From: a virus
Strand: one strand, 5' to 3'
DNA: 24,183 nt
IMG/VR virus record: IMGVR_UViG_3300017728_000111
Span: 1-24,183 of that record
The position numbers and the translations under genes are program-made. The notes beneath the pieces were generated by a model. It was not told the origin of the DNA and ran no database searches. It saw only the letters and a program-made list of their open reading frames with translations. Shown piece by piece: positions 3,300 through 21,000 of this stretch (its first letter is position 1; each line of letters opens with the position of its first letter).

Positions 3300-3524
3300 A
3301 TGGCTAGAACACCAAACACAATAAAAGTAACAGTACAAGCAAACAGCACAGTCCAATCAGTAGAAGGACCGGGTTTAACGCCAGCAACTGTTGCAGAAAT
3401 GCGTAACATCAATGTAAGTAATGTTGTTGTTATGATAAATGCTAATAAAGCAGAGATGAACACTCCACTAAAAGATGGAGATTTTCTACACTTTAGTACA
3501 TCTAAAGTAACATCGGGTAGTTAA
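3300..3524 (+). CDS. Ubiquitin-like beta-grasp protein (MoaD/ThiS type), 74 residues
   Basis: The ATG at 3300 follows a strong SD (TAGGAGG). The 74 residues fit a beta-grasp fold: strand about 7-13 (TIKVTVQ), strand 16-21, helix about 26-36 (TPATVAEMRNI), strand about 40-47, then the MoaD/ThiS signature 'pLkDGDflhF' at about 56-65. The C-terminus is TSGS rather than the GG of free MoaD/ThiS/ubiquitin, so either a non-canonical tail is used or the last Ser is trimmed to expose Gly. It is followed by E2-, JAB- and E1-like genes, the expected partners: E1 would adenylate the C-terminus, E2 carry it, and JAB process or remove it. The similarity is by pattern and context. Alternatively it could be a sulphur carrier, but no sulphur-pathway gene is nearby. 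Confidence 0.7.
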   Translation: MARTPNTIKVTVQANSTVQSVEGPGLTPATVAEMRNINVSNVVVMINANKAEMNTPLKDGDFLHFSTSKVTSGS

Positions 3525-3545
3525 ATAATTACTTGATTAAATAGT

Positions 3546-3621
3546 GTTAAAGCGTTGTATTTTGTCCGCTGATTGTGTCGATTAACTTCGGTTGTGTGAG
3601 CTTCAAAATCAGCGCTTTAAC
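3546..3621 (+). promoter_or_regulatory. Structured RNA between ubiquitin-like and E2-like genes
   Basis: GTTAAAG 3546-3552 pairs with CTTTAAC 3615-3621, CGCTGATT 3567-3574 pairs with AATCAGCG 3607-3614, and a C(UUCG)G tetraloop hairpin AAC-TTCG-GTT sits at 3584-3593. No T-run follows, so it is not a classic terminator. It ends about 10 nt before the SD (AAGGAGAT) of the E2-like gene and could set the ratio between the small modifier protein and the enzymes. Confidence 0.5.
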
Positions 3622-3643
3622 CTTAACTAAGGAGATATAAATA

Positions 3644-5470
3644 ATGATAAAGTTTAAAAGTGTAACAGCTATTCGTAAAATAGTTAATATATTTTACATA
3701 GCACAAAATAAGTTTAATAATGTGATTTTAGGAGACGATATTCCATTTGACGAAGATAATGTTAAAAAACAAATGGAAGAAGAATCTTATGATTTTATTA
3801 AATATGTAACTTCTAATTCAGCAGGGTCATTCTTTTCAATAGTCATAGAATTACCAAATCCACGGCTTCAGGGTTCTAGAAAATACATCATGCCTAAAAT
3901 GGATTTTATATTAAGGTTTAGTAAAGATGGTACATCTATGGGTAAAAGATTTGTTTTAGAAGATTATGACGGACCATCTCTTAGTGTTCATCCTCATGTA
4001 AATGCAGAAGGTGAACCATGTTTAGGCGGTCATGAACGAGGTATGAATTTTTACCTTCAAAACAACTCACTAACATTGATACGTAAATATGCTATTATGT
4101 TTCAAAATACATGGACTAGAAATGACGCATACTGGGATATTAATAATATGCACGATTCTTACAGACAGATGACACAAGAATTATCTTTTTTACAGGCAAG
4201 AATAGATAAAGACAATCCAATACAATTAAAAGAGATAGTAGGCGAAAATACTTCTTATTATTCTTATGTAATTTGGTATAAAAAGCTTCATGAAAAATAT
4301 CATAGAGTTTTTAATAGCAATAATCATGGACTAAGATTTAGGCAATTTCTTTATCCCTCAAGAGACGTAATGAAATGTTATGAAGATAGATTAAAACAAG
4401 GCTATATCCAAGATTATTTTAAATTTTGCAACATGTGTGTAGATGTGTTAATCTGGGTTAAGTTAAATCAATACAATACTGTTTATTCTAACATAGAAGA
4501 TAAATGGAGAAATATTAATTCTATTAATTTCAGTAAAGTAAACGCTTTAACAGTAGGAACACAAACCTTTAATCAGTGTTTTTACATTGGAAGTTCTGGA
4601 AAGCAACAGTTACAAAAAGACTTTGTTGTGGACTGGTTAGATATTCCAAAATTTAACTCAAATAGCGTTTCAAATAAATTAATGTTATCAACTACAGGAC
4701 TAATGCCATCTAATAAACGAAGATTATCGAGCGAAAGCGATATATCTATATCTTTAATAACAGATACGACTATATCATTTTCAAAAAGAAATGAAGTTAT
4801 GTCTATTAATAATAATCCAACTGATATGGATAAATTAGCTTGGATTTTCGTTAATGTGCTTGGCTGTCGAGCTGATAGAAAAAACATTATTTGTTATGAT
4901 GATGCTCCAGAACATATTCAACAGACAAACATGACATATTGGGCAGGTAATGTAGGTGGTATTAGTAGAGAATCAGCACCATTGTTCTTCAAATTAGAAA
5001 CTAATCATGAAGTAATAACAGAACTTATTATTCATAATCCTCATTATATATGTGAAAATATAATTAAAGCATTAGTTAATCTTAAAATTCTAAATAAACT
5101 AGGATTTCCAAAGAAATTCAAAGATTTATTATGCTTAATTAAAGTTAATGAGAATCATGGTTATCTTGCTAATGGAGACTTTAATGTGGTTTTTGCCAAA
5201 GATAGATGCATAGAGCTGTATGATTGGATAGAAAATGAGTTATTAACAGAAGATGATGTGTTTAATCTAGAAGCAAAAGCAAACATAATATGTTATGATT
5301 TAACAATAGCATATAATGATTTTATTAATAATAAGTTACTTAATATGACAAGGAGACATAATGTTATCAAAGAAGAAGCAACAAGAAAAAAAGAAAGCGA
5401 AATGCGAAGAAACGGGTTCTCTATTAATGATACGGAAGGACATGCAAGACAAAGTGAGCTTTTTGCTTAA
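3644..5470 (+). CDS. E2-like ubiquitin-conjugating domain protein, 608 residues
   Basis: The start at 3644 has SD AAGGAGAT at 9-nt spacing. Residues about 50-170 fit an E2 (UBC) fold: strands with FFSIVIELPNPR, then YIMPKMDFILRF, then the active-site region HPHVNAEGEPCLGG (116-129), matching the E2 pattern 'HPnv...G.iCl'. Cys126 would carry the thioester; His116 and His118 replace the canonical HPN. The pattern resembles PRTRC protein B. Residues about 175-608 form a long extension I do not recognise: Tyr/Asn-rich and helical, with a Ser-rich stretch near 360-385 and a very charged C-terminus. Typical E2s are about 150-200 residues, so this extension may supply substrate choice or an E3-like role (inference). 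Its last 110 nt overlap the JAB gene in another frame. Confidence 0.75.
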   Translation: MIKFKSVTAIRKIVNIFYIAQNKFNNVILGDDIPFDEDNVKKQMEEESYDFIKYVTSNSAGSFFSIVIELPNPRLQGSRKYIMPKMDFILRFSKDGTSMGKRFVLEDYDGPSLSVHPHVNAEGEPCLGGHERGMNFYLQNNSLTLIRKYAIMFQNTWTRNDAYWDINNMHDSYRQMTQELSFLQARIDKDNPIQLKEIVGENTSYYSYVIWYKKLHEKYHRVFNSNNHGLRFRQFLYPSRDVMKCYEDRLKQGYIQDYFKFCNMCVDVLIWVKLNQYNTVYSNIEDKWRNINSINFSKVNALTVGTQTFNQCFYIGSSGKQQLQKDFVVDWLDIPKFNSNSVSNKLMLSTTGLMPSNKRRLSSESDISISLITDTTISFSKRNEVMSINNNPTDMDKLAWIFVNVLGCRADRKNIICYDDAPEHIQQTNMTYWAGNVGGISRESAPLFFKLETNHEVITELIIHNPHYICENIIKALVNLKILNKLGFPKKFKDLLCLIKVNENHGYLANGDFNVVFAKDRCIELYDWIENELLTEDDVFNLEAKANIICYDLTIAYNDFINNKLLNMTRRHNVIKEEATRKKESEMRRNGFSINDTEGHARQSELFA

Positions 5471-6233
5471 TGAATTTCCAGACACAGAATGGTCAGGACC
5501 TGCTTGGTACGAAATAATGAAAAGTGATGGTGATTTTCCTGAAAAAGTTATGCTTGTATATTTTAAACCTATTGATTTAGGTGACAGTACAAGCACAGAG
5601 CTAGATGGAGAAGAACTAGGTAAATTATTACCTGATTTGTATAAAGATAAGCCAGAGTTGAAAGACTGCGCTTTAGGCTTAATACATAGTCATCATACAT
5701 TAGGTGCTTTCTTTAGTCAAACAGATAAAGATACAGCTTTAGACAATGCTAGTGCTACTGGTTTATATTTTTCAACAGTAGTTGCAAGTGAAAAGACAAA
5801 ATGTGTTTTTGGTTTTAGTTATGAAGATAGACTAGGATTTAATCATTTTGTAGAAGGAGATGTATACAAACCAAAAGAGAAAATAGTTATAAATCCTGAA
5901 TGGAAGAAAGAAGCTAAAAGCATAGCTAAAAAAGCCAAAGAGAAAAAGAAATCTTATTTTGGTAGTTTTAACTATAAATATTACAATGGTGAATCAAGTC
6001 AAAGAACTATGTTTGACTCATATTTGTCACCAGCAAGTAAGCTTCTAAATGCTGATATTGTTGAAGAAGAAGATGAAGAAGATATGATTTTAACAGCTAT
6101 TGATGCTTTTATAATTAATAGAAACTTTAATCAATTCGCTTCAGATATACGAGCAATTAATTCTGGTTTAGATGCGTCTAATGTCTTAAAAGAATATTAT
6201 AAGGAGAATAGTATAAATTCTTTAAGAATATAA
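5361..6233 (+). CDS. JAB/JAMM metalloprotease, 290 residues
   Basis: The ATG at 5361 lies within the 3' end of the E2-like gene and has its own SD (AAGGAG, 6 nt upstream), which favours it over the later Met23. The JAMM zinc motif is complete: His109-Ser-His111, seven residues, Ser119-Gln-Thr-Asp122, with Glu43 (TEWSG) as the likely catalytic glutamate. His replaces the usual Pro after HxH, and the AFFS context resembles PRTRC protein A. The family cleaves isopeptide or C-terminal peptide bonds of ubiquitin-like proteins, so its probable job is to mature the 74-residue protein or remove it from targets. The first 15 residues and residues about 182-208 are very Lys-rich; an acidic EEEDEED tract lies near 237. 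Cytoplasmic, no membrane segment. Confidence 0.85.
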   Translation: MLSKKKQQEKKKAKCEETGSLLMIRKDMQDKVSFLLNEFPDTEWSGPAWYEIMKSDGDFPEKVMLVYFKPIDLGDSTSTELDGEELGKLLPDLYKDKPELKDCALGLIHSHHTLGAFFSQTDKDTALDNASATGLYFSTVVASEKTKCVFGFSYEDRLGFNHFVEGDVYKPKEKIVINPEWKKEAKSIAKKAKEKKKSYFGSFNYKYYNGESSQRTMFDSYLSPASKLLNADIVEEEDEEDMILTAIDAFIINRNFNQFASDIRAINSGLDASNVLKEYYKENSINSLRI

Positions 6234-6240
6234 TGAAAAA

Positions 6241-6288
6241 GCCCCTTACATACAAATCAAGTCATCTCCTCCTTGGTATGTAGGGGGC
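6241..6288 (+). promoter_or_regulatory. Strong intra-operon hairpin with anti-SD-like loop
   Basis: GCCCCTTACATAC 6241-6253 pairs with GTATGTAGGGGGC 6276-6288 (13 bp with one G-T at 6246/6283, valid in plus RNA). The 22-nt loop contains TCTCCTCCTT, close to the 3' end of 16S rRNA and complementary to SD sequences. The plus side lacks a T-run (AATAAATT follows). On the minus strand the stem is followed by TTTTT, but no minus-strand gene lies here. It sits between the JAB gene and the 77-residue gene, just before SD AAAAGGA. Confidence 0.6.
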
Positions 6289-6308
6289 AATAAATTAAAA
6301 GGATATTA

Positions 6309-6542
6309 ATGAAAATAAGCAAATTTAGAGCTCAAGAAGCTCTTCAAAGATTAGAAAAAGTAATCGATGAAGAATTATGGAGTATATCTTTTGAATTAGA
6401 AAGTGAATATAATATAGATAAACCTCATGAAGAAGAAATAAATAACCGAGAGCATCCTGTTTATTTATTAGGCTATTTTGAAGCTTATACTAGAATACGT
6501 AATCAATTAAAAAATAAATTAAAAGAGGTAGTTAATGAATAA
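6309..6542 (+). CDS. Acidic helical protein of the conjugation cassette, 77 residues
   Basis: The ATG at 6309 follows AAAAGGAT. The 77-residue product is almost entirely helical and acidic in its centre (FRAQEALQRLEKVIDEELW, KPHEEEINNREH) and ends in a basic coiled-coil-like helix (RIRNQLKNKLKEVVNE). It overlaps the E1-like gene by 8 nt. Placed between JAB and E1, it could be a scaffold, regulator or substrate of the system. I do not recognise a family, and no enzymatic motif is visible. Confidence 0.75.
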   Translation: MKISKFRAQEALQRLEKVIDEELWSISFELESEYNIDKPHEEEINNREHPVYLLGYFEAYTRIRNQLKNKLKEVVNE

Positions 6543-7320
6543 TACAAGATTTTTAAGAAACAAAGACCTTATTAATGTTGAAAACCTTAAAGAAGTTACA
6601 ATTATAGGTTTAGGAGGCATAGGTTCTTTCCTAGTGCAAACATTAGGTATCATGGGATTTCAAATTGTAAGAGGTTATGATGATGATGTTATGGAATCAC
6701 ATAATTTATCTAGCACTGCTTATGACTTTGATGACGTTGGATTACCCAAAGCTAATTGCGCAATAAAATTGTGGAATAGAGTTACTTCTCCAGAACAAAT
6801 ATTCTATGGAATAGAAGAACGTTTTGGCGTAAATAATAATACTAGTCCCAATATGATAATATGCACTGATGACATGGAATCTAGAAAAATTATATATAGA
6901 ATGTGGTGGAATAGACATGGTAAATCAAATCCTAATGCTTGGCTTATAGATGCTCGTATGGGTGCTACAAGTATAGAAGTAGTCACTTGTAAAGGTATTG
7001 TTAAACAAAATTACTTTGAACATTGGATACCTACAAGTTCAGTACCTTCAGCACCTTGTTCTATGAAACACACAGTATTTGCTACGACAAACGTAGTAAG
7101 TATTGTAGCTAGTCAAGTGCATTCTTTAGTTGCAAATTTGTCTTATTATGATTACATTTGGTCCAGCTTGAGTCCAATAAATATCCATTATGGGACATTA
7201 ATAGTACCTAACATCAACAACAAGGAAACAAATGGTAAAAGTACGCAAAGTGCAGACGGACTGGGGGATAATGCCCTCAGGACTGACTTACTTCTTCATT
7301 GGTCAGCCAAAAACAGGTAA
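6535..7320 (+). CDS. ThiF/E1-like ubiquitin-activating enzyme, 261 residues
   Basis: The start at 6535 has AGAGG upstream and overlaps the previous gene. The Rossmann-type adenylation domain shows GLGGIG (25-30), an acidic strand end at 49-51 followed by Asn57 (YDDDVMESHNL), and Asp112/Asp113 with Arg117, matching ATP-binding and Mg-binding positions of ThiF/MoeB/E1 enzymes. Cys175 (SAPCSMKHT) is the likely thioester cysteine, placed as in ThiF-type proteins of PRTRC cassettes; no CxxC zinc pairs are seen. It would adenylate the C-terminus of the 74-residue protein and pass it to Cys126 of the E2-like protein (inference). The last 29 codons overlap the recombinase gene, including part of its Walker A region. 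Confidence 0.85.
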   Translation: MNNTRFLRNKDLINVENLKEVTIIGLGGIGSFLVQTLGIMGFQIVRGYDDDVMESHNLSSTAYDFDDVGLPKANCAIKLWNRVTSPEQIFYGIEERFGVNNNTSPNMIICTDDMESRKIIYRMWWNRHGKSNPNAWLIDARMGATSIEVVTCKGIVKQNYFEHWIPTSSVPSAPCSMKHTVFATTNVVSIVASQVHSLVANLSYYDYIWSSLSPINIHYGTLIVPNINNKETNGKSTQSADGLGDNALRTDLLLHWSAKNR

Positions 7321-8092
7321 AACAACTGCAACTAGTCAATGGAGTGAAAAAGGAGCTGAGGGAGTGTTAATGATTGACACAGACCTTGGCTCTGATTTTA
7401 CTAATAAAGCTAATGTAGTTACAGTAACCGAACTAAACCCTCCGATGAGAGAACAGATGATTGACGGCAAGCAAGTCGTTAAAAGTGGTAAGCCACAATT
7501 CGAAATCGTGCCTCCTGAAGAAAGAGGTTATAGGTTTAGAACGGGTAAAGAAGCAGGTAGTCCTATGCCTGTTTATAGCATGATAGAAGTTTATCAATGG
7601 CTAGAAAAAGAATGGGATAGTTTGCCTTATGATACTATTGTTATAGATACAATAGGGCAAGTAAACGAATGGGTAGAAACAATAGTTATTCGAGAGTTAG
7701 GAATAACAGCTATGGGCGAAGGTTCATGGGGCGCAGACTGGGGAAAAGCTAGACGTAAAAATCTAGACGTTATCAAACGTTTCCAAGGTCTAACTAAAAA
7801 GATGGGTGCAAACCTTATTCTTATTAGTCATAGTAAAACAACGAATGTAGTAGATGGTAAAGCTCAACTAGGACCAGAATTACCAAGGGGACTAGGATAT
7901 AGTTTAGCCGCTAAAGCAGACGTTATAGGCTATTGTACAGCAGATAAAGATGGTGGTAAATATTACATATCTTTTGAAGCTTATGATGAAAGAGTAGTAG
8001 GAAGCAGACTTAAGCCACTTGCTCAAAAGAGACTTCCGTTTAATTACGAAAGTATAAGAAAAGAAATACTAAACTACAAAAAGGAGGACTAA
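7232..8092 (+). CDS. Sak4-like RecA-fold recombinase/ATPase, 286 residues
   Basis: The start at 7232 has SD AAGGA about 8 nt upstream, inside the end of the E1-like gene. Walker A is GQPKTGKTT (24-32); Walker B is YDTIVIDT ending at Asp139-Thr140; a sensor-like stretch ILISHSK follows near 199. This layout is that of phage single-RecA-domain ATPases (Sak4/AAA_24), which anneal or exchange DNA strands together with a phage SSB. An SSB-like gene follows immediately (TAATG overlap), supporting a recombination/replication role. Insert residues 70-110 are charged and lack a recognised motif. Confidence 0.85.
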   Translation: MVKVRKVQTDWGIMPSGLTYFFIGQPKTGKTTATSQWSEKGAEGVLMIDTDLGSDFTNKANVVTVTELNPPMREQMIDGKQVVKSGKPQFEIVPPEERGYRFRTGKEAGSPMPVYSMIEVYQWLEKEWDSLPYDTIVIDTIGQVNEWVETIVIRELGITAMGEGSWGADWGKARRKNLDVIKRFQGLTKKMGANLILISHSKTTNVVDGKAQLGPELPRGLGYSLAAKADVIGYCTADKDGGKYYISFEAYDERVVGSRLKPLAQKRLPFNYESIRKEILNYKKED

Positions 8093-8682
8093 TGTCCGAG
8101 AGATTCAGACCAAGTGAAATAGAAACATCATCAGGAACAGGAAGTTACTTAGGTATAATTCCAGTTACCATTACAAACTTCGAAGATAGAACAAGTGAGT
8201 TTGATTGGGCTGATATGTTTATTGATATAACATTAACATCTCCAAATTCACAATATCCTTATACAATGTCAGTATTGGGTTCATATGATAAAGAACCTAA
8301 TGGAAACATCAAGACATGTTCATTGTTAAAGAGAGTTTATAATTTGTTTGACTCTATAGGATTCGAAGGTGGACCTAACAAAGAAGGTACATTAGTGGAT
8401 AAAGAAGGTAAGGTTATTGATAATTTTGAGAAATATCTACATGATAATTTCTTAAAACAACTAGGTAACAAAACACTTTATGCTTATGCTTATAAAGAAC
8501 AAGCTAAAAATGGTAAGGTTTACACTAAGGTGTATCCTAAATTTGGAACTAGTGAATCTGATTTAGAGGGTTATGTTAACTTTCTAAAATCAAAGAACCT
8601 TATAAAGGAAGTCTCAGAAAGTGGAAATGTTGTCCCTACAATAGACAGCAATTCTGACTCAAGTGAGTCAATGCCCTTTTAA
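8092..8682 (+). CDS. Single-stranded DNA-binding protein, 196 residues
   Basis: It starts in the stop of the recombinase gene (TAATG), with AAAGGAGG upstream. The N-terminal about 150 residues are beta-rich with aromatic residues spaced as in OB-fold or DUF669-like phage SSBs. The C-terminus is an acidic Ser/Asp tail ending in SESMPF, very like the acidic tip ending in hydrophobic Pro-Phe that SSBs use to recruit partner proteins. Its position between a Sak4-like recombinase and a primase-helicase fits. No zinc motif. The exact family is uncertain, but the role is well supported by tail and context. Confidence 0.7.
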   Translation: MSERFRPSEIETSSGTGSYLGIIPVTITNFEDRTSEFDWADMFIDITLTSPNSQYPYTMSVLGSYDKEPNGNIKTCSLLKRVYNLFDSIGFEGGPNKEGTLVDKEGKVIDNFEKYLHDNFLKQLGNKTLYAYAYKEQAKNGKVYTKVYPKFGTSESDLEGYVNFLKSKNLIKEVSESGNVVPTIDSNSDSSESMPF

Positions 8683-10463
8683 TGTATGTAGAAATAGCAA
8701 TCGGGAGTCCTTCGTCAAGAGGGGCTCTCGTTTCTGAACACGATTATATGGCTACTTTATATGAATTAAAGCCCGGATTACAAATGTACAGAAGTGTATT
8801 TTTATATGATGAGGATGCATTAAAATTCATAAATAAAAGTGGAAGTATCAAAAACTTTGTAGGCAAAAGATATATTGATGAAGTACCTATTGATATTGAT
8901 AAAGGTCAACAAACAGATGAGTATACTTTGCAACAAGCTCAATTTGTGTTATTCGAATTACAGGAACTTGGTTTAAATGAAGAGAACTTTCAAATATATT
9001 TTAGTGGTACAGGCTATCATATAAATATATCTGGAGAATGTTTTAATATTGAACCAAGCTCTGATTTACCGTTTATACTTAAACAAACTATGAAAGACTT
9101 AATAGATTATAAAATAGACTTAAGTGTATACACAAAATCAGCAATAATTCGCTCTCCTTATTCATATAACACAAAATCTGGATTGTACAAAGTTCCATTA
9201 AGCGTTACAGAACTAAACACAATGAATGTTCAACAAATACATGCTAAAGCTAATTTTGAAGTTGGTAAACATCAAAAATCGTTAAAAACAATATCAGGTG
9301 ATGGGAGTCTAGAATCATACGTAAATAAAAATGTTCCTGAGATAAGGTCAATGCAAGCAGTGCAAGAACCAAGGAATGTAGTTCCATGCGTTCAAACAAT
9401 GTATAAAAATGGACCAACACAAGGAAACAGAAATAACACCGTATTGAGAATGGCTAGTCATTTTAGAAGACATGGTATACCAAGCGATGCAACTAAAGCA
9501 AGTTTGTTACATTGGAATAATAATCAATTAAATCCTCAAGTAATTATAGACAAAGTAGAAGCTACATACAATCATGGCTATCAATATGGTTGTAAAGATT
9601 CTATTATGTCTGAACATTGTGACCCTAAATGCGTCTATTATAAACGTAAAGATTATTTAATAGATGTGCATACAAGAGAGCAATTACAAGAGCAATTAGA
9701 AGAAAGATTATCTACTGATTACACTGGTAAAAGTATAGATTTAGCAAAAAGTTTCGGCTTAAGAGACAAAGATTGCGTTATATACCCCGGTGAATTAGTT
9801 ACAATATTCGGTCCTACAGGTAGCAATAAAACTACATTAGCTCAAAATATTGTTTTAGGATATGATTTCAAGCAGGATATAATACAACCTGAGTGGCAAT
9901 TACCAACATTGTTTTTGTCATTAGAATTATCAGGTCATTATATGCATAGAAGAAATCTACAAATAGTATCAGGATTAAATAAAGATGCAGTCAATGAAGA
10001 TGTACATCAAATAGGTCAAGATTATGCAGACCAATTATCACATCTAACAATACAGACTATAGCAACCCAGCCAGATACTATTGCTAAAAAGATTAAAGAA
10101 ATGCAACCAGCAGTAGTTGTAATAGATTACATTGACTTGTTAGAATGTCCACCGCACTTACGTGGAGAATATGAACAAGTACGATATATCAGTCATTACC
10201 TATCAAACCTTGCTGTAAATATGGATATAATCATTATACAAATCTCACAAGTATCAAGAGATTATAGTAGAAATGAAATACTAGACATATATGCTGGTAA
10301 AGGTTCAGGTGCTATAGAAAATGCATCAAGAAAAGTTATAGGTATTAATGGTAGACAAGATAATACAGCTAAAGAAGTATCTCTATTTAAAAACTCAGAT
10401 GGTGATTTATTTGATGTAAATTTAAATTGGACGCCATCATTCAGATTACCAAGGACAACGTAA
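8682..10463 (+). CDS. AEP primase fused to DnaB-like helicase, 593 residues
   Basis: Coupled to the SSB gene by TAATG. Residues about 1-175 carry archaeo-eukaryotic primase motifs: acidic pair Asp71-Ile-Asp73 (VPIDIDKG), S-x-G-x-H (Ser108, His113 in YFSGTGYHINI) and a basic third motif (Arg157, Lys165). Residues 236-317 hold Cys236, Cys304, Cys313 and Cys317 with GNRNN between, as in PriL-C-terminal/PriCT-like modules that bind a metal or Fe-S cluster. Residues about 365-560 form a RecA-type helicase core: Walker A GPTGSNKTT (377-385), Walker B AVVVIDYIDLLE (around Asp482), then IIIIQISQVSR and a Gly-rich KGSGAIENASRK segment. One protein could therefore prime and unwind DNA. No DNA polymerase gene lies in this window. 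Confidence 0.85.
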   Translation: MYVEIAIGSPSSRGALVSEHDYMATLYELKPGLQMYRSVFLYDEDALKFINKSGSIKNFVGKRYIDEVPIDIDKGQQTDEYTLQQAQFVLFELQELGLNEENFQIYFSGTGYHINISGECFNIEPSSDLPFILKQTMKDLIDYKIDLSVYTKSAIIRSPYSYNTKSGLYKVPLSVTELNTMNVQQIHAKANFEVGKHQKSLKTISGDGSLESYVNKNVPEIRSMQAVQEPRNVVPCVQTMYKNGPTQGNRNNTVLRMASHFRRHGIPSDATKASLLHWNNNQLNPQVIIDKVEATYNHGYQYGCKDSIMSEHCDPKCVYYKRKDYLIDVHTREQLQEQLEERLSTDYTGKSIDLAKSFGLRDKDCVIYPGELVTIFGPTGSNKTTLAQNIVLGYDFKQDIIQPEWQLPTLFLSLELSGHYMHRRNLQIVSGLNKDAVNEDVHQIGQDYADQLSHLTIQTIATQPDTIAKKIKEMQPAVVVIDYIDLLECPPHLRGEYEQVRYISHYLSNLAVNMDIIIIQISQVSRDYSRNEILDIYAGKGSGAIENASRKVIGINGRQDNTAKEVSLFKNSDGDLFDVNLNWTPSFRLPRTT

Positions 10464-13104: not shown

Positions 13105-15042
13105 TCAGTTTTTAGATGGCATATCGTCATCATCGTCTGACATATTAAAAAGGTAAGGTGTAAGTGCGCCAGACATTTCTTTAGCTATATACGCTAAGCT
13201 AGTAGCATCCATAGCTAATCCAGCAAGTTTAAACACTTTTCCCGCTGTACTTTTACTAGTAAATAGTTTAATTATCTCTTTACTTGCTTTAGATGGATTA
13301 TTCTTTATGTAATTAACAAGCATTTTCTTTCTACCACCTCTTTCAAACACGTTTATATCTTCTAAACTAGAACCTCTTGCACGATTAGGTAACCTGCTTT
13401 GCCATTCAAAAGATTTTGAAGGTTGAGATGCTTGAGAAGTATTAGTCCATATACCTTTATTATTTATATAATGTTGATGGTAAAACTCATCAATAAGCAA
13501 AGGTACGTTATTTTGCACTTTACTACTTTTAAATATATCATGAACATCTGTTTTAATTCTTCTTGAATACACTTTATTATTTTTAGAGTCGAATCTGTAT
13601 TCACCCATCATATTAACTCCACCTTCAAAATATTGAGCAGTAACACCGCCTAAATTTTTAAGTTTAAATGAACCATCCCATTTTTTTCTTACACCACCCC
13701 ATAATATCTTCCCATTTTTTTCACCCTGTTTAAGAAAAACTTGAGGTTTAATTTCATTAGCAATATTGTCAACAGCGAACCTATTGAATTTTCTAAACTC
13801 ATTATTCTTTAAAATGTATGGTCTGTTTTTTCCATCATTTAAATATTTACCATATTTTTTTCCACCAAGGGCTGCATATTGCCTTCTTCCTAATTTAAAT
13901 TCATCTATATCGCTTCTACCGACCATTTGCCTTAAAAAAGCATTCATACTGCGTATATTATTAACTTCTCCAGTTCCTAGACCATGAGAAAGTTTAGCGG
14001 CTATATTGTGAAAATTTTTATTAGTTTTATTAAAAAGCATAGCATCGCCACGATGAGTATTTTTAAATACAACAACTTGTTTATCGACACCCTCTCTAAT
14101 AATTTTACCACCTTTATGAAAAACAATATCTTTATCTAAAGATAACTTTTTACCTAATTTGCTTTTTTTCTCTATTTGAATTTTTGGAGTTGCTATATCG
14201 ACATCACCTTTCCAAGGTTTTAAAAAACCTTCAGGAAGTCCCGGTAATTTAGCTTCTAGGTCATTCCACCTAGCTGTAATTACAGGAGAATAACCAGCTT
14301 GTTTAAGTCGTTTTGTACTATATCTTTTATTAGCTAAAAATCCATTTTCTATTTCATTCTTAGCTATTTCAGAACGATAATATCTACTAGCTTTACCTAA
14401 TTTAGAGCTTTCTTTATCTAATTTATCTAATTCAGCCTCTAAGTAAGGTATTCTTTCAGGATTTTTATTTTTAGAAATAGCAATTTCATTGTAAACTTCT
14501 TGAGTTCTTTTATCAATAGTATCCTGTAATTGCCGAGCATCGTTACTAGCTATGTAATGTCTAAATTCTTCAGGTGTTACAGTAAAACCAGATTTATTTT
14601 CTTTTGCAACATTGGAAATATATGTTTTATAATCTTTTCTCCAACTTCTATCTTTTAGTTTATCATTACCAAGGTAATATTTATCTAATTTATCTTCAAC
14701 TTCACCTCTAAGATTTGCTTCGAAACTTTGTTTACTAGCAAGTCCTTCATTTTTACCAATTCTAAACGCTAATTTATCGCCTATTTTTTCATAAGGTAAA
14801 TTTTTATATTTTTCTATAGTCGCTTTGCCATAAAAATTATCTACAGTATTTGTTTGTTTATTCATAGCCCAAACACCTGCTTTTGGAATTGCGTTAGCAA
14901 TACCAACACCTATACTATTGGCTATACCCCTAGTACCTGTAAACCTAGCTTCTTGAGCTTCGTTATCGTCATAATCGGCAGATAAATATCTGTTATATAC
15001 TTCTTCACCAAGGTAAACACCAAGCGCACTTCTTTTAATCAT
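13105..15042 (-). CDS. Late virion-type protein, 645 residues
   Basis: The start at 15042 has AAGGAAG upstream and overlaps the 2881-residue gene by 8 nt, so the two are translationally linked. The protein is basic and Lys/Tyr/Asn-rich, with a small Gly/Ala hydrophobic stretch near residues 38-58 (GTRGIANSIGVGIANAI) and a second near 605-635 (VFKLAGLAMDATSLAYIA), ending in an acidic DDDDD tail. No enzymatic motif seen. Placement at the end of a late operon after a giant internal-type protein suggests a virion or ejection protein that may accompany the polymerase. Family unknown. Confidence 0.75.
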   Translation of the reverse strand: MIKRSALGVYLGEEVYNRYLSADYDDNEAQEARFTGTRGIANSIGVGIANAIPKAGVWAMNKQTNTVDNFYGKATIEKYKNLPYEKIGDKLAFRIGKNEGLASKQSFEANLRGEVEDKLDKYYLGNDKLKDRSWRKDYKTYISNVAKENKSGFTVTPEEFRHYIASNDARQLQDTIDKRTQEVYNEIAISKNKNPERIPYLEAELDKLDKESSKLGKASRYYRSEIAKNEIENGFLANKRYSTKRLKQAGYSPVITARWNDLEAKLPGLPEGFLKPWKGDVDIATPKIQIEKKSKLGKKLSLDKDIVFHKGGKIIREGVDKQVVVFKNTHRGDAMLFNKTNKNFHNIAAKLSHGLGTGEVNNIRSMNAFLRQMVGRSDIDEFKLGRRQYAALGGKKYGKYLNDGKNRPYILKNNEFRKFNRFAVDNIANEIKPQVFLKQGEKNGKILWGGVRKKWDGSFKLKNLGGVTAQYFEGGVNMMGEYRFDSKNNKVYSRRIKTDVHDIFKSSKVQNNVPLLIDEFYHQHYINNKGIWTNTSQASQPSKSFEWQSRLPNRARGSSLEDINVFERGGRKKMLVNYIKNNPSKASKEIIKLFTSKSTAGKVFKLAGLAMDATSLAYIAKEMSGALTPYLFNMSDDDDDMPSKN

Positions 15043-18000
15043 CTGTTTCTTCCTTTTTAGAACCTAAATATGGGAATATAGGTTTTAAATCTGCGGCTAC
15101 ATCAATTAAAGGAAGTCCAGTCATTTTATTTACGGCATAATATGGATTTTCAATAATGCCACCCTTACCTAATACATCTCTACCAATTCTACCAAATGGA
15201 AATAAACTCCAAGCTACATACTCAGTCATCATTTCTTGGTCTTTATTTAGCATCCATTTAAATAATTGTGGCATAGCTCTAAGAAACGGAGGTGTTACTA
15301 TTTGAAACGGTCCAAGAGGACTACCAAAAAAAGCTCTATCTTTAGTTTTTTCATCTCCAAAGAAATAATCTGCTGTATCTTGTAACCAGTTATATGGTGC
15401 AGGTAATGCTGATTCAAACAAAGAGTATGTATATACACTAGCCATTCCTAACATAAAAGCATCTGCTTGCATCATTCTAATAGCTCCATCATGAGCTTCT
15501 GTTCCCGGAACAAAGCCATATATTTTAGCTCTTCTAAGAGTGTCTCTTCTAAATCTTACTGAGTTCCAACTCCATAACTGAAATCTTGAAAATATTTTAC
15601 CCATACTACTCGTTGTCCATGCTGGTCTATATGGAGCAGAGTATAAAAACTGAGTAGCCTTAACACCTTTTTTAGCCATTTCTATTAAAAATGGATGGTC
15701 ATGGTCTTTTATACTATTGCCAAATCTTTCTCTTGCTTGTAAATAATGAGCCATAAAAGCATCTCTTCTTAAAGCTCTTTCAGGAACTCTCATAAAAGAA
15801 CTAGCAAATTTAAATGCACTAGCAGATAAATTATATTTTCTTTTTATTTCTAACAGTTCTTTAGGTCCTACTTTTTTACCAGTTTTTAACATATTGCTAA
15901 CGTCGTTAGCCATTTTAGATAAATTATTGTCTTTTTGTGCTGGATTTAAGCCAACTTCGTATTGTAAGAAATCTTCAGTAACTCCTAATTTTTGCAACCA
16001 GTCTTCTACGTCAGACATACTATTCCATTTAGGGTTTACTTTAGCTTTTAGATACTCAATACTTCTAGCATTTTTAAATGTACTCCATCCAGTATTTATA
16101 ACAGTATGAATACTTCCACCATAAAAGTTAGCTACTGCGCTTTTAGGGTGAGCAAGTAATGATGCTAACTGCCATTTAGCTTCTAAGGCACTCATACTTT
16201 CTAATTGAGCGTAACTAACACCAGTCATTTCATCTATAACATCTTCACTTAAATTAAATTCTTTTAACTGTTTCCTGTCTATATTTAATTTTTTTCTTAT
16301 AAAATCAACTCTTTTTTTAGTTTGACTATCAGAAAAAAACTTATAAGGAGTGTATTTAATTTTCATTAAGGGGTCATTCATTACTTCTTTTGGTATATGA
16401 GTAGGGTAACCCATAGCTTGTTGAGCGTATAAACCAAAAAATCTTCTCCAAGCTGTAGTTAAATTAGCGTCTTTAGTTTTTCTAAAAAACTTTTCTCCAA
16501 ATTCATGAATTGTAGACCTATTTGCTGTTTGCATAGCTTGTCTATAAAATGTATCAATAATATTTTTCATATATGCATCATAGGCTTCTGGAGTTCTAGA
16601 CCATCCACCAATATGACTTTCTCTACTAAATTGATTTCCAACTTTAACAAGTCCGCTACTCATAATTTCCTTAGCGTGTGAAATATTATTTTGAGCAACT
16701 GCTGTAATAATGTCTTCTACTCTATCATAATTTTCACCCATCATATCTTTTGACATATAATCACCAGTCAATCTTTTATACTGAGTAAATACTTTTTTAA
16801 TCTCTACATCTTTTTCTTTTTTTGTTAAATCTCTTTCATTTAAAGTTTTAATAGCATATTCATACCTTTCTTTAGCTTTCTTTTTATCTAGCCCTATATG
16901 GGGAAAATACTCACTATAATCATACTTACTAGTATACTCTGACTGCTCAAAGTCAAGCTTTCTATTTATTTCTTTTAATTTTTTCCAACCATCTTGTTTA
17001 ATCCGTTTTAAAGGCATATGGCTTTGGATAATATGTTTACTAATAAGTCTAATTCCATCTACTCCATATTTTTCTATCGGAATAGGTTTACCATTTCTTA
17101 ACAAGTTAGCGACTTCTCTATTCCAAGCTCTTCTTAAAACAACAAGACCACCATATGTAATCCTACCTTGTTTATTTCGTGCCATCTCTAAAAATCTTTG
17201 AGCAGACTTACCATCACCAGTTAACCATTGATGAACTTTTTCATTCTGTATTGTAATAGCTCTATTAATATTATCAACAACATCAGCACCTTTCATAATC
17301 TGAACACCTGTTTTTAAAGGCACTCTATATGTGTTGTTACGCAACTTATTCCAAAGAGGTTTAACTTCATTCCAGTTTTCTATATACTCAGAAAGAAATA
17401 TTTTATCATTTTTAAATCTTTTATTCGCTATTGTTTTTTCTCTCATAGCAACAGCTATATCATATAAATCTCTTCCATTATCTATTCCATCAAGGTAAGG
17501 TAATAGCTTATCTCTAAGTTCACTTTTTTCATTTTGAATTACTTGTTGTGAAACTTCAGTAGCTTTAGCACTAAATTGCTGTATTAATCCCATAGGTGTT
17601 ATGGGTGTTAGGTTTTTACCCATTACAGTGTTACCAAGTCTATCTTTATATGGACTTATACCTTCTTGTAACTGTCTAAATGCAGAACTAGTAGCTAAGT
17701 CTTTATCAATAGTAGCTGGGAACTGCATATAATAAGCTCTTTTTATTTCAGTTTTATTTTTACCAATAATATAATCCCAACTTCTTCTCCAAAAACTAGG
17801 AGTATTCATATCATCTAAATAATTCTTAAATGATTGTAAATCAATTTTATTTGCAGTGTTTATATCTTTACCAGCAACAGTCCTAAATAACCAGTTAATG
17901 TTTTTAGCATCTACATTATGCATATTGTCAAGATGTCTTTTTATATCAAGATATAATTCATTCATCTCAGGGTCTTTAATATCAGGTTTACCTAACCCTA

Positions 18001-21000
18001 TGAAAGGAGCTAGTTCGTCTAAAAACCTACTTTGAGCCTTGTTTAAATCAGATTGCTCTATTATACTACCTTCAACTCTTTTACCGTTAGCGGTTAATAA
18101 ATTAATTATTTTATCAGAACCTTTATCGGGAAGCAATGATTCTTCAATGCTTTTTATTTCAACATCTGTTAACTTGGTAGATGCTTTTTTAAATAATTTC
18201 TCATATTCATCAAAGTATTTTTTTATATTACTATTGCTTACTACTTTACTATTTAAACCTACTTTCATCAAGGAAGTACTTTCAGCATCTCTTTCTAAAT
18301 CTTTTAATAAAGCTTCTTGATATTGAGCTTTTTTACCACCCCAAGCTCTACCTTTTTTTAATTTTTTAATATTTTTTCTTAGTGTTCTTTCTTTTTGTAA
18401 ATCACCCCTTGTTAAGCTACCTAATAACATTGTGTCAAAAAGTTCTTTTTCTTTACTGTTCAATTCTTTGTCTTTTATAAAATCGTTTATCATTTTATCT
18501 ATAAGAACATTATCAGCACCAGCACTAACTTTATCGCTACTACTTGTAAAATCAGATATATCGTTTATAGTTCTTTCATTGTGACCTATAAAATCAAATT
18601 CTAATTTATCAACTTGAGATTTTCTGTTTTGCATTTTATGGTAACTTTGGTTCTTAATATACTCAGCTCTTTTAAAAATTTCATCTATTCTAGCTGGATT
18701 AATATTACCTTCCTTAACAACGTTTACAATTCTATTTATAGTCGTAATATCGCTCATATCGTTTACTAAAAAGTCTTCAGACTTTAAAACCATATAATCT
18801 ATCCATGAACTTCTCCACTCAGGACTAATAGCTTTTACTATACTTTTTTCATCCATACCGTTTTCTAAAACTCTTTTATATGTAGTATTTACTTTTAAGT
18901 TATAGGGAACGTCTAATTGATTGTTTTTAGTTTTAGGACTGTTTAAATATAATTCTGCCCAAGCTTCATCATTTTCTAAATATTTCTTTAGGTGAATGTC
19001 ACTCCACATATTTTTACCAAAAACATACTCAGCAAGTTTACTTTCTTTTACAACAAAAGTTGTTCTATTTAAAATAGGTTTCAACCATTCAAATTTAGCA
19101 AGATTATCTTTATGCTCTTGATACATTTGACCTAATGCTCTTCTATCTACTCTTCTAAATAAATTATCACTCCAATTAATGTCGTTAATATCTTTAGCTA
19201 AATTTACCATAACATTATTCTCTGCACTTTTTGGTAATTTTGTTAGCTTAGAAAGTATAGATTTAATATCTGAATAAGTATACCTTAATCCAGTGGCGCT
19301 ATTTTTCCCATACAATGCTGAATTAACACTTAAAAAGTCGCCTATAATAGTTTTAGATAAATTATTCATTGGGTCAGGAGCAAACGTATCAGTTTTATAT
19401 TTACCTCTATCATAAACTTCTTGTTTAATGTCAAATAGAGGTTCCATCAACATTTGTTTAAAAACATTTTTAGGCATAACTCCAGCTTCATCCATAGGGT
19501 CGGAACCTATTGCTATCGCAGCTCTAGACCTTTGTTTAAACATATCCATATTTTCAGGGTTTAAATTTATGACCATTCTTTTAGAAAAATAACCTACAGA
19601 ATTATCTTTTTTATTATAACTTTTTTTATAGTTTAATATATAAGTTATATTACCTTTCTTGTCCTTCTTTATTATAGATTTACCTTTACTACCATCTTCC
19701 ATCAATCTAAATAGTTCTACTCTATTTGTCTTGCTAACCATGTTTGTAATAGCATTGTATGCTCCTAATATAGCACTACGTGTATTAACAGCAGTACCAA
19801 GTACGTCTCTTCCGGAACTTGCCCCATTACTCATTGCTTGTCGCCATATTGGATTATAGTAGTTAGCATTGTTACTGGCACTTCTTAGATAATCTTCATC
19901 GCTTACAGTAAATAACTCCCGAACTTTTAAAGGTTTACCACCATCAGCTCTAGCAACTTTATCTAATTCATCCTTATTGTGCATTTCTCTTTTATTATCA
20001 AAAAATTCATCTCTAGCTTCATCGTACATTTTTTTATATTCAGGCTTCATACCTCCTTCACCACCAAAGAATACAAATGCTTTATCACCGTCTAAATCAG
20101 CACCACCAAGAGCTCTCATAACCCTAGGGTGCATTAACACTCCATAACCATCTATCCCAGTAAAACCACCTAGCCTAAGAACATTTGCGCCACTCATACT
20201 ATCCATAGGGACTCTTGTCAAAACTCCCCTAATCATCTCTTTATAATCTTCCACATCATCTTTGTTTAAATTTTTATCCTTAGACATGTTAAACACTTCT
20301 TCTAAGGTAGCCTTACCATTTTTAAATCTAGAGTCGTATAAAGGTATTTTTTTATGACCTTCATCGAGGTAAAAAACTTTATTGTTGTCATCATTTATAT
20401 CGTCCATAGAGCTCTTCATACCCTCATCCCAAGGTCTAATACGAGCTACAGCACTTCCTTTTAACTTAGGTCTAGTTGCGCTATGTACAGCATAATTTTT
20501 CAAAGCAACCATTCTAAAGTCTCTAATAAATTTATGCATTAACCCACCAGTACTACCTTTTGGGTATATAGAAGCCAATCTTTCAACTATAGTATTATAT
20601 TCTTCTAGGCTAATTCTCTCTTCAGCCATTTCATCTCTACTGTATTCAGATTCTTCTGCTGTATTCCTATAATGGTCATCTTGTATTTTAAGTATTTTCT
20701 GCATAAGACCAGCTGACGCACTTTCATAATCAGGATTTCTTATAATTTCAAATAATTTATTTATAGGTATTTCATCATATTTTTCTATTAAATCTTTTTC
20801 ATTTTTAGTAGGGTCAAGTTCAAATTTTTGTAATATATTTCTACCTTCTTCTGTGCCATTTTTACTTTTTCCACTAAAATCTTCGTACATTTGTTTAAAT
20901 AAATCAGAATTATTCCCATCAATAGCACTCAACACTGTCATCATTTGCTTAGGAAGTCTTTGAGGCTTTATATATTTCTTACTTGTTATTTCAGACATAG

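Follow-up and report, generated by a model that had tools for sequence, protein, structure and literature searches.

The DNA examined here is a complete IMG/VR virus record (IMGVR_UViG_3300017728_000111), a 24-kb fragment of 24,183 bases, all of which is referred to below as the window. Its plus strand carries, in order, open reading frames (ORFs) of 74, 608, 290, 77, and 261 amino acids, followed by genes for a Sak4-like ATPase, a protein resembling single-stranded DNA-binding protein (SSB), and a primase-helicase. Four of the first five ORFs appear to encode the parts of a ubiquitin-like conjugation pathway (a modifier, an E2, a JAB peptidase, and an E1), as follows.

3300..3524, + strand: ubiquitin-like modifier, 74 amino acids, predicted beta-grasp fold, C-terminus KVTSG-S (AlphaFold model, structural neighbors, relatives)
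3644..5470, + strand: E2-like protein, 608 amino acids, with a predicted N-terminal UBC domain (approximately residues 1-190) and about 400 mostly helical amino acids (model, fold comparison, motif)
3989..4021, + strand: E2 active-site motif HPHVNAEGEPC, residues 116-126 (sequence; invariant among relatives)
5361..6233, + strand: JAB/JAMM metallopeptidase, 290 amino acids, predicted modifier protease/deconjugase (Prok-JAB PF14464, 3.7e-6, exceeding the family cut-off)
6309..6542, + strand: ORF of 77 amino acids, confined to close relatives of the window (no family match in Pfam, PHROG, or NCBIfam searches; ratio of nonsynonymous to synonymous substitution rates [dN/dS], 0.65)
6535..7320, + strand: E1-like ThiF-family adenylyltransferase, 261 amino acids, catalytic-cysteine candidate C175 (ThiF PF00899, 3.6e-11)

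The original prediction, made from the sequence alone, had named four ORFs and a set of motifs, and all of them were found at the positions it gave. It had also called the four genes consecutive, which is correct as to their order; strict adjacency does not hold, as the 77-amino-acid ORF separates the JAB and E1 genes. The E2 and JAB reading frames overlap by 110 bases and those of E1 and Sak4 by 89 bases.

A beta-grasp fold of the 74-residue protein had been set beforehand as a test of the proposal. Its AlphaFold model (pLDDT 81.9) shows the beta-grasp order of elements, and its best structural neighbor is Mth1743 (Z 9.6), in the company of MoaD, TtuB, and SAMP1, with SUMO and ubiquitin ranking lower. 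The protein carries LKDGD at residues 57-61 and extends a single residue past a conserved C-terminal glycine. The terminus is KVTSG plus 0 to 3 residues in 21/21 relatives, and more distant modifiers end in KVESG, KVKSG, or NNKTGG plus a tail. Family searches of Pfam, PHROG, and NCBIfam gave no significant match to the modifier. Its dN/dS against the nearest sister, L006, is 0.11, and it is therefore a real, constrained gene.

Sequence searches with the 608-residue protein returned nothing in Pfam, PHROG, NCBIfam, PADLOC, or isolated phages, and its profile matched no E2 in the PDB; the E2 identity emerged from folding alone. The model is confident in the first ~190 residues only, where a helix, four strands, the active-site loop, and further helices follow one another in the predicted order alpha-beta4-[HPH..C]-alpha. 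The ~400-amino-acid C-terminal part is modeled with low confidence as mostly helical. The top Foldseek match is an E2 (E 0.15), and with a second aligner, applied to residues 11-216, the top 50 matches are all E2, UEV, or RWD domains, the best match having a Z score of 5.6 and a root mean square deviation of 4.5 over 118 residues. Because all the top matches share one fold and the active-site motif lies in the right loop, we consider the UBC fold of the modeled N-terminus convincing, as had been proposed. The motif itself, HPHV-x6-C, has the same His-to-Cys spacing of 10 as E2s of the UBE2D type (HPNINSNGSIC). Residues H116, P117, H118, P125, C126, and G128 are invariant in 29/29 relatives, although the E2s show only about 15% identity to the window protein, with a range of ~12-29%; 11 alignment columns are invariant, and 6 of them lie in a 13-residue active-site stretch. 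Outside that stretch the protein evolves much faster than its neighbors while the motif stays fixed: against L006 the E2 shows 29% identity and a dN/dS of 0.62, whereas Sak4 is 92% identical over the same pair.

The two remaining enzymes are more readily recognized by family searches. The JAB protein has its HSH-x7-S-x2-D motif at residues 109-122, Prok-JAB was detected in 16/16 relatives, and the JAMM residues E43, H109, H111, S119, and D122 are invariant in 36/36 (dN/dS against L006, 0.25). In the E1, GLGGIG occupies residues 25-30; the GxGGxG motif (G25-x-GGIG), D49, K72, D112, and C175 are present in 43/43 relatives, and dN/dS against L006 is 0.36. No JAB relative was found in plasmids, and neither E1 nor JAB had a relative among 84,980 cellular genomes in a conserved-peptide scan of a kind that detects close relatives only.

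Directly downstream lie the genes that give the cassette its replication setting.

7232..8092, + strand: Sak4-like RecA-fold ATPase, overlapping E1 (PHROG 124, 4.9e-25; syntenic among relatives)
8092..8682, + strand: probable SSB with an acidic tail ending in MPF (assigned from the acidic C-terminal tail and position; syntenic; no match in Pfam, PHROG, or NCBIfam family searches)
8682..10463, + strand: primase-helicase, PriCT-1 plus DnaB-like helicase (DnaB_C, 4.1e-15; PriCT_1, 2.7e-5; PHROG 19, 4.4e-27)

An E1-seeded scan of viral contigs yielded 59 loci and an alignment-seeded scan yielded 196 relatives. The order modifier-E2-JAB-E1-Sak4-SSB-helicase is kept wherever a relative's contig extends far enough. 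Among loci retrieved with E1 or Sak4 as the seed, which are not all independent (some are one contig retrieved twice), E1 was found in 68/68, JAB in 56/56, E2 in 42/42, and the modifier in 33/33. To avoid bias, the helicase was also used as the seed. Profile searches of the helicase-seeded loci detected E1 in 56/56, JAB in 45/45, E2 in 26/33, and the modifier in 23/28, and with inspection of the last 7 and 5 loci the latter two counts became 33/33 and 28/28. At the 7 loci without an E2 profile match, an ORF of 533-666 amino acids stands in the place of E2 and carries HPYI...LCL(S/G) or HSH...CACYG; at the 5 loci without a modifier match there is an ORF of 88-110 amino acids ending in NNKTGG or NKRGG plus 2-8 residues. 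Loss of E2 or the modifier at these loci was accordingly rejected in favor of divergence. No loss of any part was found among the helicase-seeded loci, and the cassette is therefore a core feature of this marine phage group rather than a passenger. The proposal of a full modifier/E2/JAB/E1 cassette, borne by a phage and placed inside a replication operon, is supported.

One divergent branch (L195-L204) combines a modifier ending in NNKTGG or NKRGG plus 2-8 residues with an E2 motif of HPY...LCL(S/G) and an E1 that has GCGAIG for GLGGIG. Its members have altered the modifier terminus and the E2 motif and retained every part of the cassette, and they supply a clear case of a modifier that ends in GG plus a short tail.

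The modifier has a ThiS/MoaD-like fold, the E1 is of the ThiF type, and JAMM enzymes occur in sulfur pathways too. It could thus be asked whether modifier and E1 form a thiocarboxylate for thiolation of RNA or a cofactor, with JAB cleaving an adduct in the manner of CysO-type systems. We regard a sulfur carrier as quite improbable, however, given the constant linkage of these genes to a UBC-fold protein whose HPH...C motif is invariant, and given that inspection of the cassette's surroundings turned up no rhodanese or sulfurtransferase gene and no thiazole/molybdopterin gene. The constant presence of E2 and the lack of visible sulfur-transfer genes nearby led us to reject this identity.

The four-gene set also occurs outside the marine group. 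In crAss001, gp79, gp78, gp77, and gp76 (annotated as hypothetical, hypothetical, metalloprotease, and ThiF) correspond to modifier, E2, JAB, and E1 in the order seen in the window: gp79 has an N-terminal modifier-like domain, KKIKSG, and then an extension; gp78 has MHSHV...PCTG; gp77 has the JAMM motif; and gp76 is a ThiF protein. The set is likewise present in the crAss-like phages frurule, DAC15, bajarodcaudo, and cr126_1, in Flavobacterium phage FpV4, and in Dulem 41; in cr106_1 the run is E2-JAB-E1, and the annotated upstream ORFs include no obvious modifier. These Crassvirales (Steigviridae) and Flavobacterium/gut phages share with the window the gene order, the E2/JAB overlap, the JAMM motif, the H-x-H...C-x-G motif, and a K-x-x-SG modifier. 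Profile comparison between the marine and crAss-like proteins gave 5e-32 for E1 and 4e-28 for JAB, and the crAss-like E1s belong to the same clade as that of the window. In contrast, the modifier tail of 0-8 residues in marine phages is replaced by a C-terminal extension of ~130-200 amino acids in crAss-like phages, the spacing in the crAss-like E2 is longer (HSH-x15-18-C), and no Sak4 adjoins the cassette.

A third setting is found in the 227-kb phages PhiXhv-12 (Xanthomonas) and Ep032 (Erwinia), where a modifier ending in SGG, an 892-amino-acid E2 (HPHM...CLG), and an E1 lie in a row. This E1 falls within the phage clade; unlike in the window protein, the UBC motif is close to the C-terminus of the E2. 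Prok-JAB (PF14464) was not found in the 227-kb genomes. The enzyme is missing from genomes whose modifier is synthesized with a GG end, which is what one would predict if JAB matures the modifier in the other phages; the pattern is based on two near-identical phages. Beside its UBC motif, the PhiXhv-12 E2 (L067:4238-6916) has Cys-rich, possibly zinc-binding ends with CxxC repeats, which could possibly be a built-in E3-like part. In crAss-like phages the cassette has a primase and a uracil-DNA glycosylase as neighbors; in the 227-kb phages its neighbors are a ligase and topoisomerases. Because modifier profiles gave nothing significant between phage groups, the homology of the modifiers is based on gene position, size, fold, and C-terminus. 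For E2, too, profile comparison was statistically weak (E 0.0041 for marine against crAss-like, 0.12 for marine against PRTRC), the sole aligned stretch in both cases being the active-site motif.

The original prediction had likened the E2 and JAB motifs to PRTRC proteins. Five bacterial operon types were described by Iyer et al. in 2006, and their type 6d, with modifier, JAB, E1, E2, and a helical protein, the E2 being without the classical histidine (PMC1779556), is by our reading the PRTRC type. Like the phage cassette, PRTRC combines a modifier with a C-terminal Gly, a separate E2, a JAB, and an E1 in a common order (C-F-B-A-ThiF), and the marine profiles match those of PRTRC at 5.8e-10 (E1) and 2.1e-5 (JAB). 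That a phage has simply taken up a PRTRC system would fit these likenesses, and true PRTRC-like genes are carried by Burkholderia phage BgVeeders33. Nevertheless, this explanation is extremely improbable. In a maximum-likelihood tree all phage E1s form one group (support, 97/94) and PRTRC ThiF proteins form a separate group (100/99); IDxR(M/L) is limited to phage E1s, where PRTRC has (I/L)Dxx N. The window proteins score far below NCBIfam cut-offs (PRTRC_A, 15.7 bits against 101.8; PRTRC_ThiF, 27.2 against 144.75), and they have no NCBIfam match to PRTRC B or C. PRTRC_B was not found in the window, crAss001, FpV4, or PhiXhv-12, and a family search of the scanned genes of the window, itself a 24-kb fragment, revealed none of the ParB-related, E, or F genes that distinguish PRTRC. 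The E2 active site differs as well, with plasmid PRTRC B showing NV-x-x-x-G-x-x-C-x-G at the place of the HPH motif: the phage E2 retains HP, with His for Asn, whereas PRTRC B is without the HPx histidine. The resemblance thus stands for gene order and for the remote homology of E1 and of JAB, and fails for the E1 clade and for the E2 histidine, which has no PRTRC B counterpart; on these grounds and the sub-threshold scores, PRTRC membership was rejected.

BgVeeders33 (33-kb genome, L083:2240-6726), with PRTRC-like B, A, and ThiF genes and possible E, C, and F genes, is a separate, true PRTRC-type phage case. Two plasmid PRTRC cassettes directly precede an ssb gene (L068:6974-8626 and L081:5854-7582), echoing the phage setting.

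A modifier, an E2, a JAB, and an E1 also make up the four-protein BilABCD system, which modifies phage structural proteins. This likeness would favor superinfection exclusion, with the cassette defending against competing phages. We think this very improbable, as the cassette is core and universal in the family, sits among replication genes, and matched nothing among PADLOC defense families beyond the generic ThiF domain. In Bil, whose role is defense, the modifier has two domains, the E2 is of the CEHH type, and the E1 combines an inactive with an active adenylation domain (PMC11354881), whereas the phage cassette has a one-domain modifier of 74 amino acids, an HPH...C E2, and a single-domain E1 of 261 amino acids; membership in Bil was rejected because modifier, E2 motif, and E1 architecture all differ. 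Cap2/Cap3 of the cyclic oligonucleotide-based antiphage signaling system (CBASS) and other E1-E2 fusions have E2, E1, and JAB chemistry in common with the cassette, and the phage E1 weakly matches PADLOC E1-E2 profile models. In CBASS, however, E1 and E2 are fused, there is no separate modifier gene, and a CD-NTase is the partner; the phage E1 and E2 are separate, and nothing in the cassette matched a CD-NTase.

Bil and CBASS conjugation act against phages (PMC11354881; PMC10449767), and the main rival to a target among replication proteins is that the phage pathway blocks such systems, through a decoy modifier, hijacking of E1/E2, or removal of host tags by JAB. The fast divergence of E2 outside its motif, as in host-facing proteins, speaks for counter-defense. 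Yet every member keeps the whole pathway with intact active sites, although a decoy needs no full cascade; the cassette lies in a replication operon, not in an accessory region; and counter-defense genes are usually patchy in distribution. We consider this rival unlikely. Of the two roles offered by the original prediction, the universal presence and replication setting of the cassette lead us to favor tagging during infection over blocking of a host defense.

Among phages, the nearest arrangement in Iyer et al. is the lambda/T1 pair TAPI and TAPK (row 5), a modifier-like protein with a JAB peptidase, as in the phage cassette; that entry is a tail modifier with JAB only (PMC1779556), in a tail module without E1 or E2. 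No description of a phage E1/E2/modifier/JAB set was found in the open literature, and since subscription papers and preprints fell largely outside the search, priority is uncertain. The two main crAss-like genome papers do not mention the cassette.

Two further observations concern other ORFs. Between JAB and E1, where the window has its 77-amino-acid ORF, most relatives have an unrelated ORF of ~145 amino acids, whose product is conserved (M-x-TxPQKKYFxxRIDE...EATxIKDxAMFG; L012:9555-9995, L018:5533-5967, L053:9421-9855, and others). On the minus strand of the window, at 15035-23680, lies an ORF of 2881 amino acids with 37-87% identity in all 8 large relatives tested; it matched no PDB sequence and could be assigned convincingly to no family, and its ADLDGD is reminiscent of the catalytic motif of crAss-like/YonO RNA polymerases.

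We conclude, with a probability of roughly 0.78, that the four genes form a working, reversible, phage-encoded ubiquitin-like conjugation pathway, most likely used during phage DNA replication. The genes, their modeled folds, their co-occurrence, and the operon are as described above, and the conserved active sites suggest the catalytic steps. JAB would trim the tailed modifier and expose its C-terminal glycine, which E1 would adenylate with ATP and then bind in a thioester at C175. Transfer to C126 of the UBC domain would follow, and E2, its long helical part perhaps choosing the substrate, would attach the modifier to a protein amine; JAB could later take the modifier off its target again. 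Because the cassette adjoins replication genes in every group and would be produced along with the replication module, our guess, a tentative one at less than even odds, is that the targets are phage or host proteins engaged in replicating or recombining phage DNA.

Several points weigh against this conclusion. Confidence in the E2 model is modest, and a top Z score of 5.6 would be middling if taken alone. Phage E1s are without the Arg of the N-x-x-R-Q motif of ThiF, MoeB, and PRTRC proteins, which the invariant arginine of IDxR(M/L) may replace. The fast divergence of E2 outside its motif might indicate a changing host target instead of conserved phage replication proteins, and in our own weighing it is the strongest fact against a replication-protein target.

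Until now, ubiquitin-like pathways in bacteria have been known from hosts, several of them being anti-phage, or from plasmids and mobile elements; here, such a pathway is a core phage asset. Both marine phages and the widespread crAss-like phages of the human gut have the full cascade, masked by labels such as "thiamine biosynthesis protein" and "hypothetical," and the phage E1 clade enriches the history of ubiquitin signaling with branches that are deep and independent. With crAss001, DAC15, and FpV4 in culture, the question of tagging by phages is open to test now. Conceivably, though at less than even odds, reversible tagging of this ubiquitin-like kind belongs to the ancestral core of DNA replication or recombination in several phage groups, the crAss-like phages included, with its own phage-specific E1/E2 lineage. 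If true, viruses would have a counterpart of the ubiquitin/SUMO control of the eukaryotic replisome.

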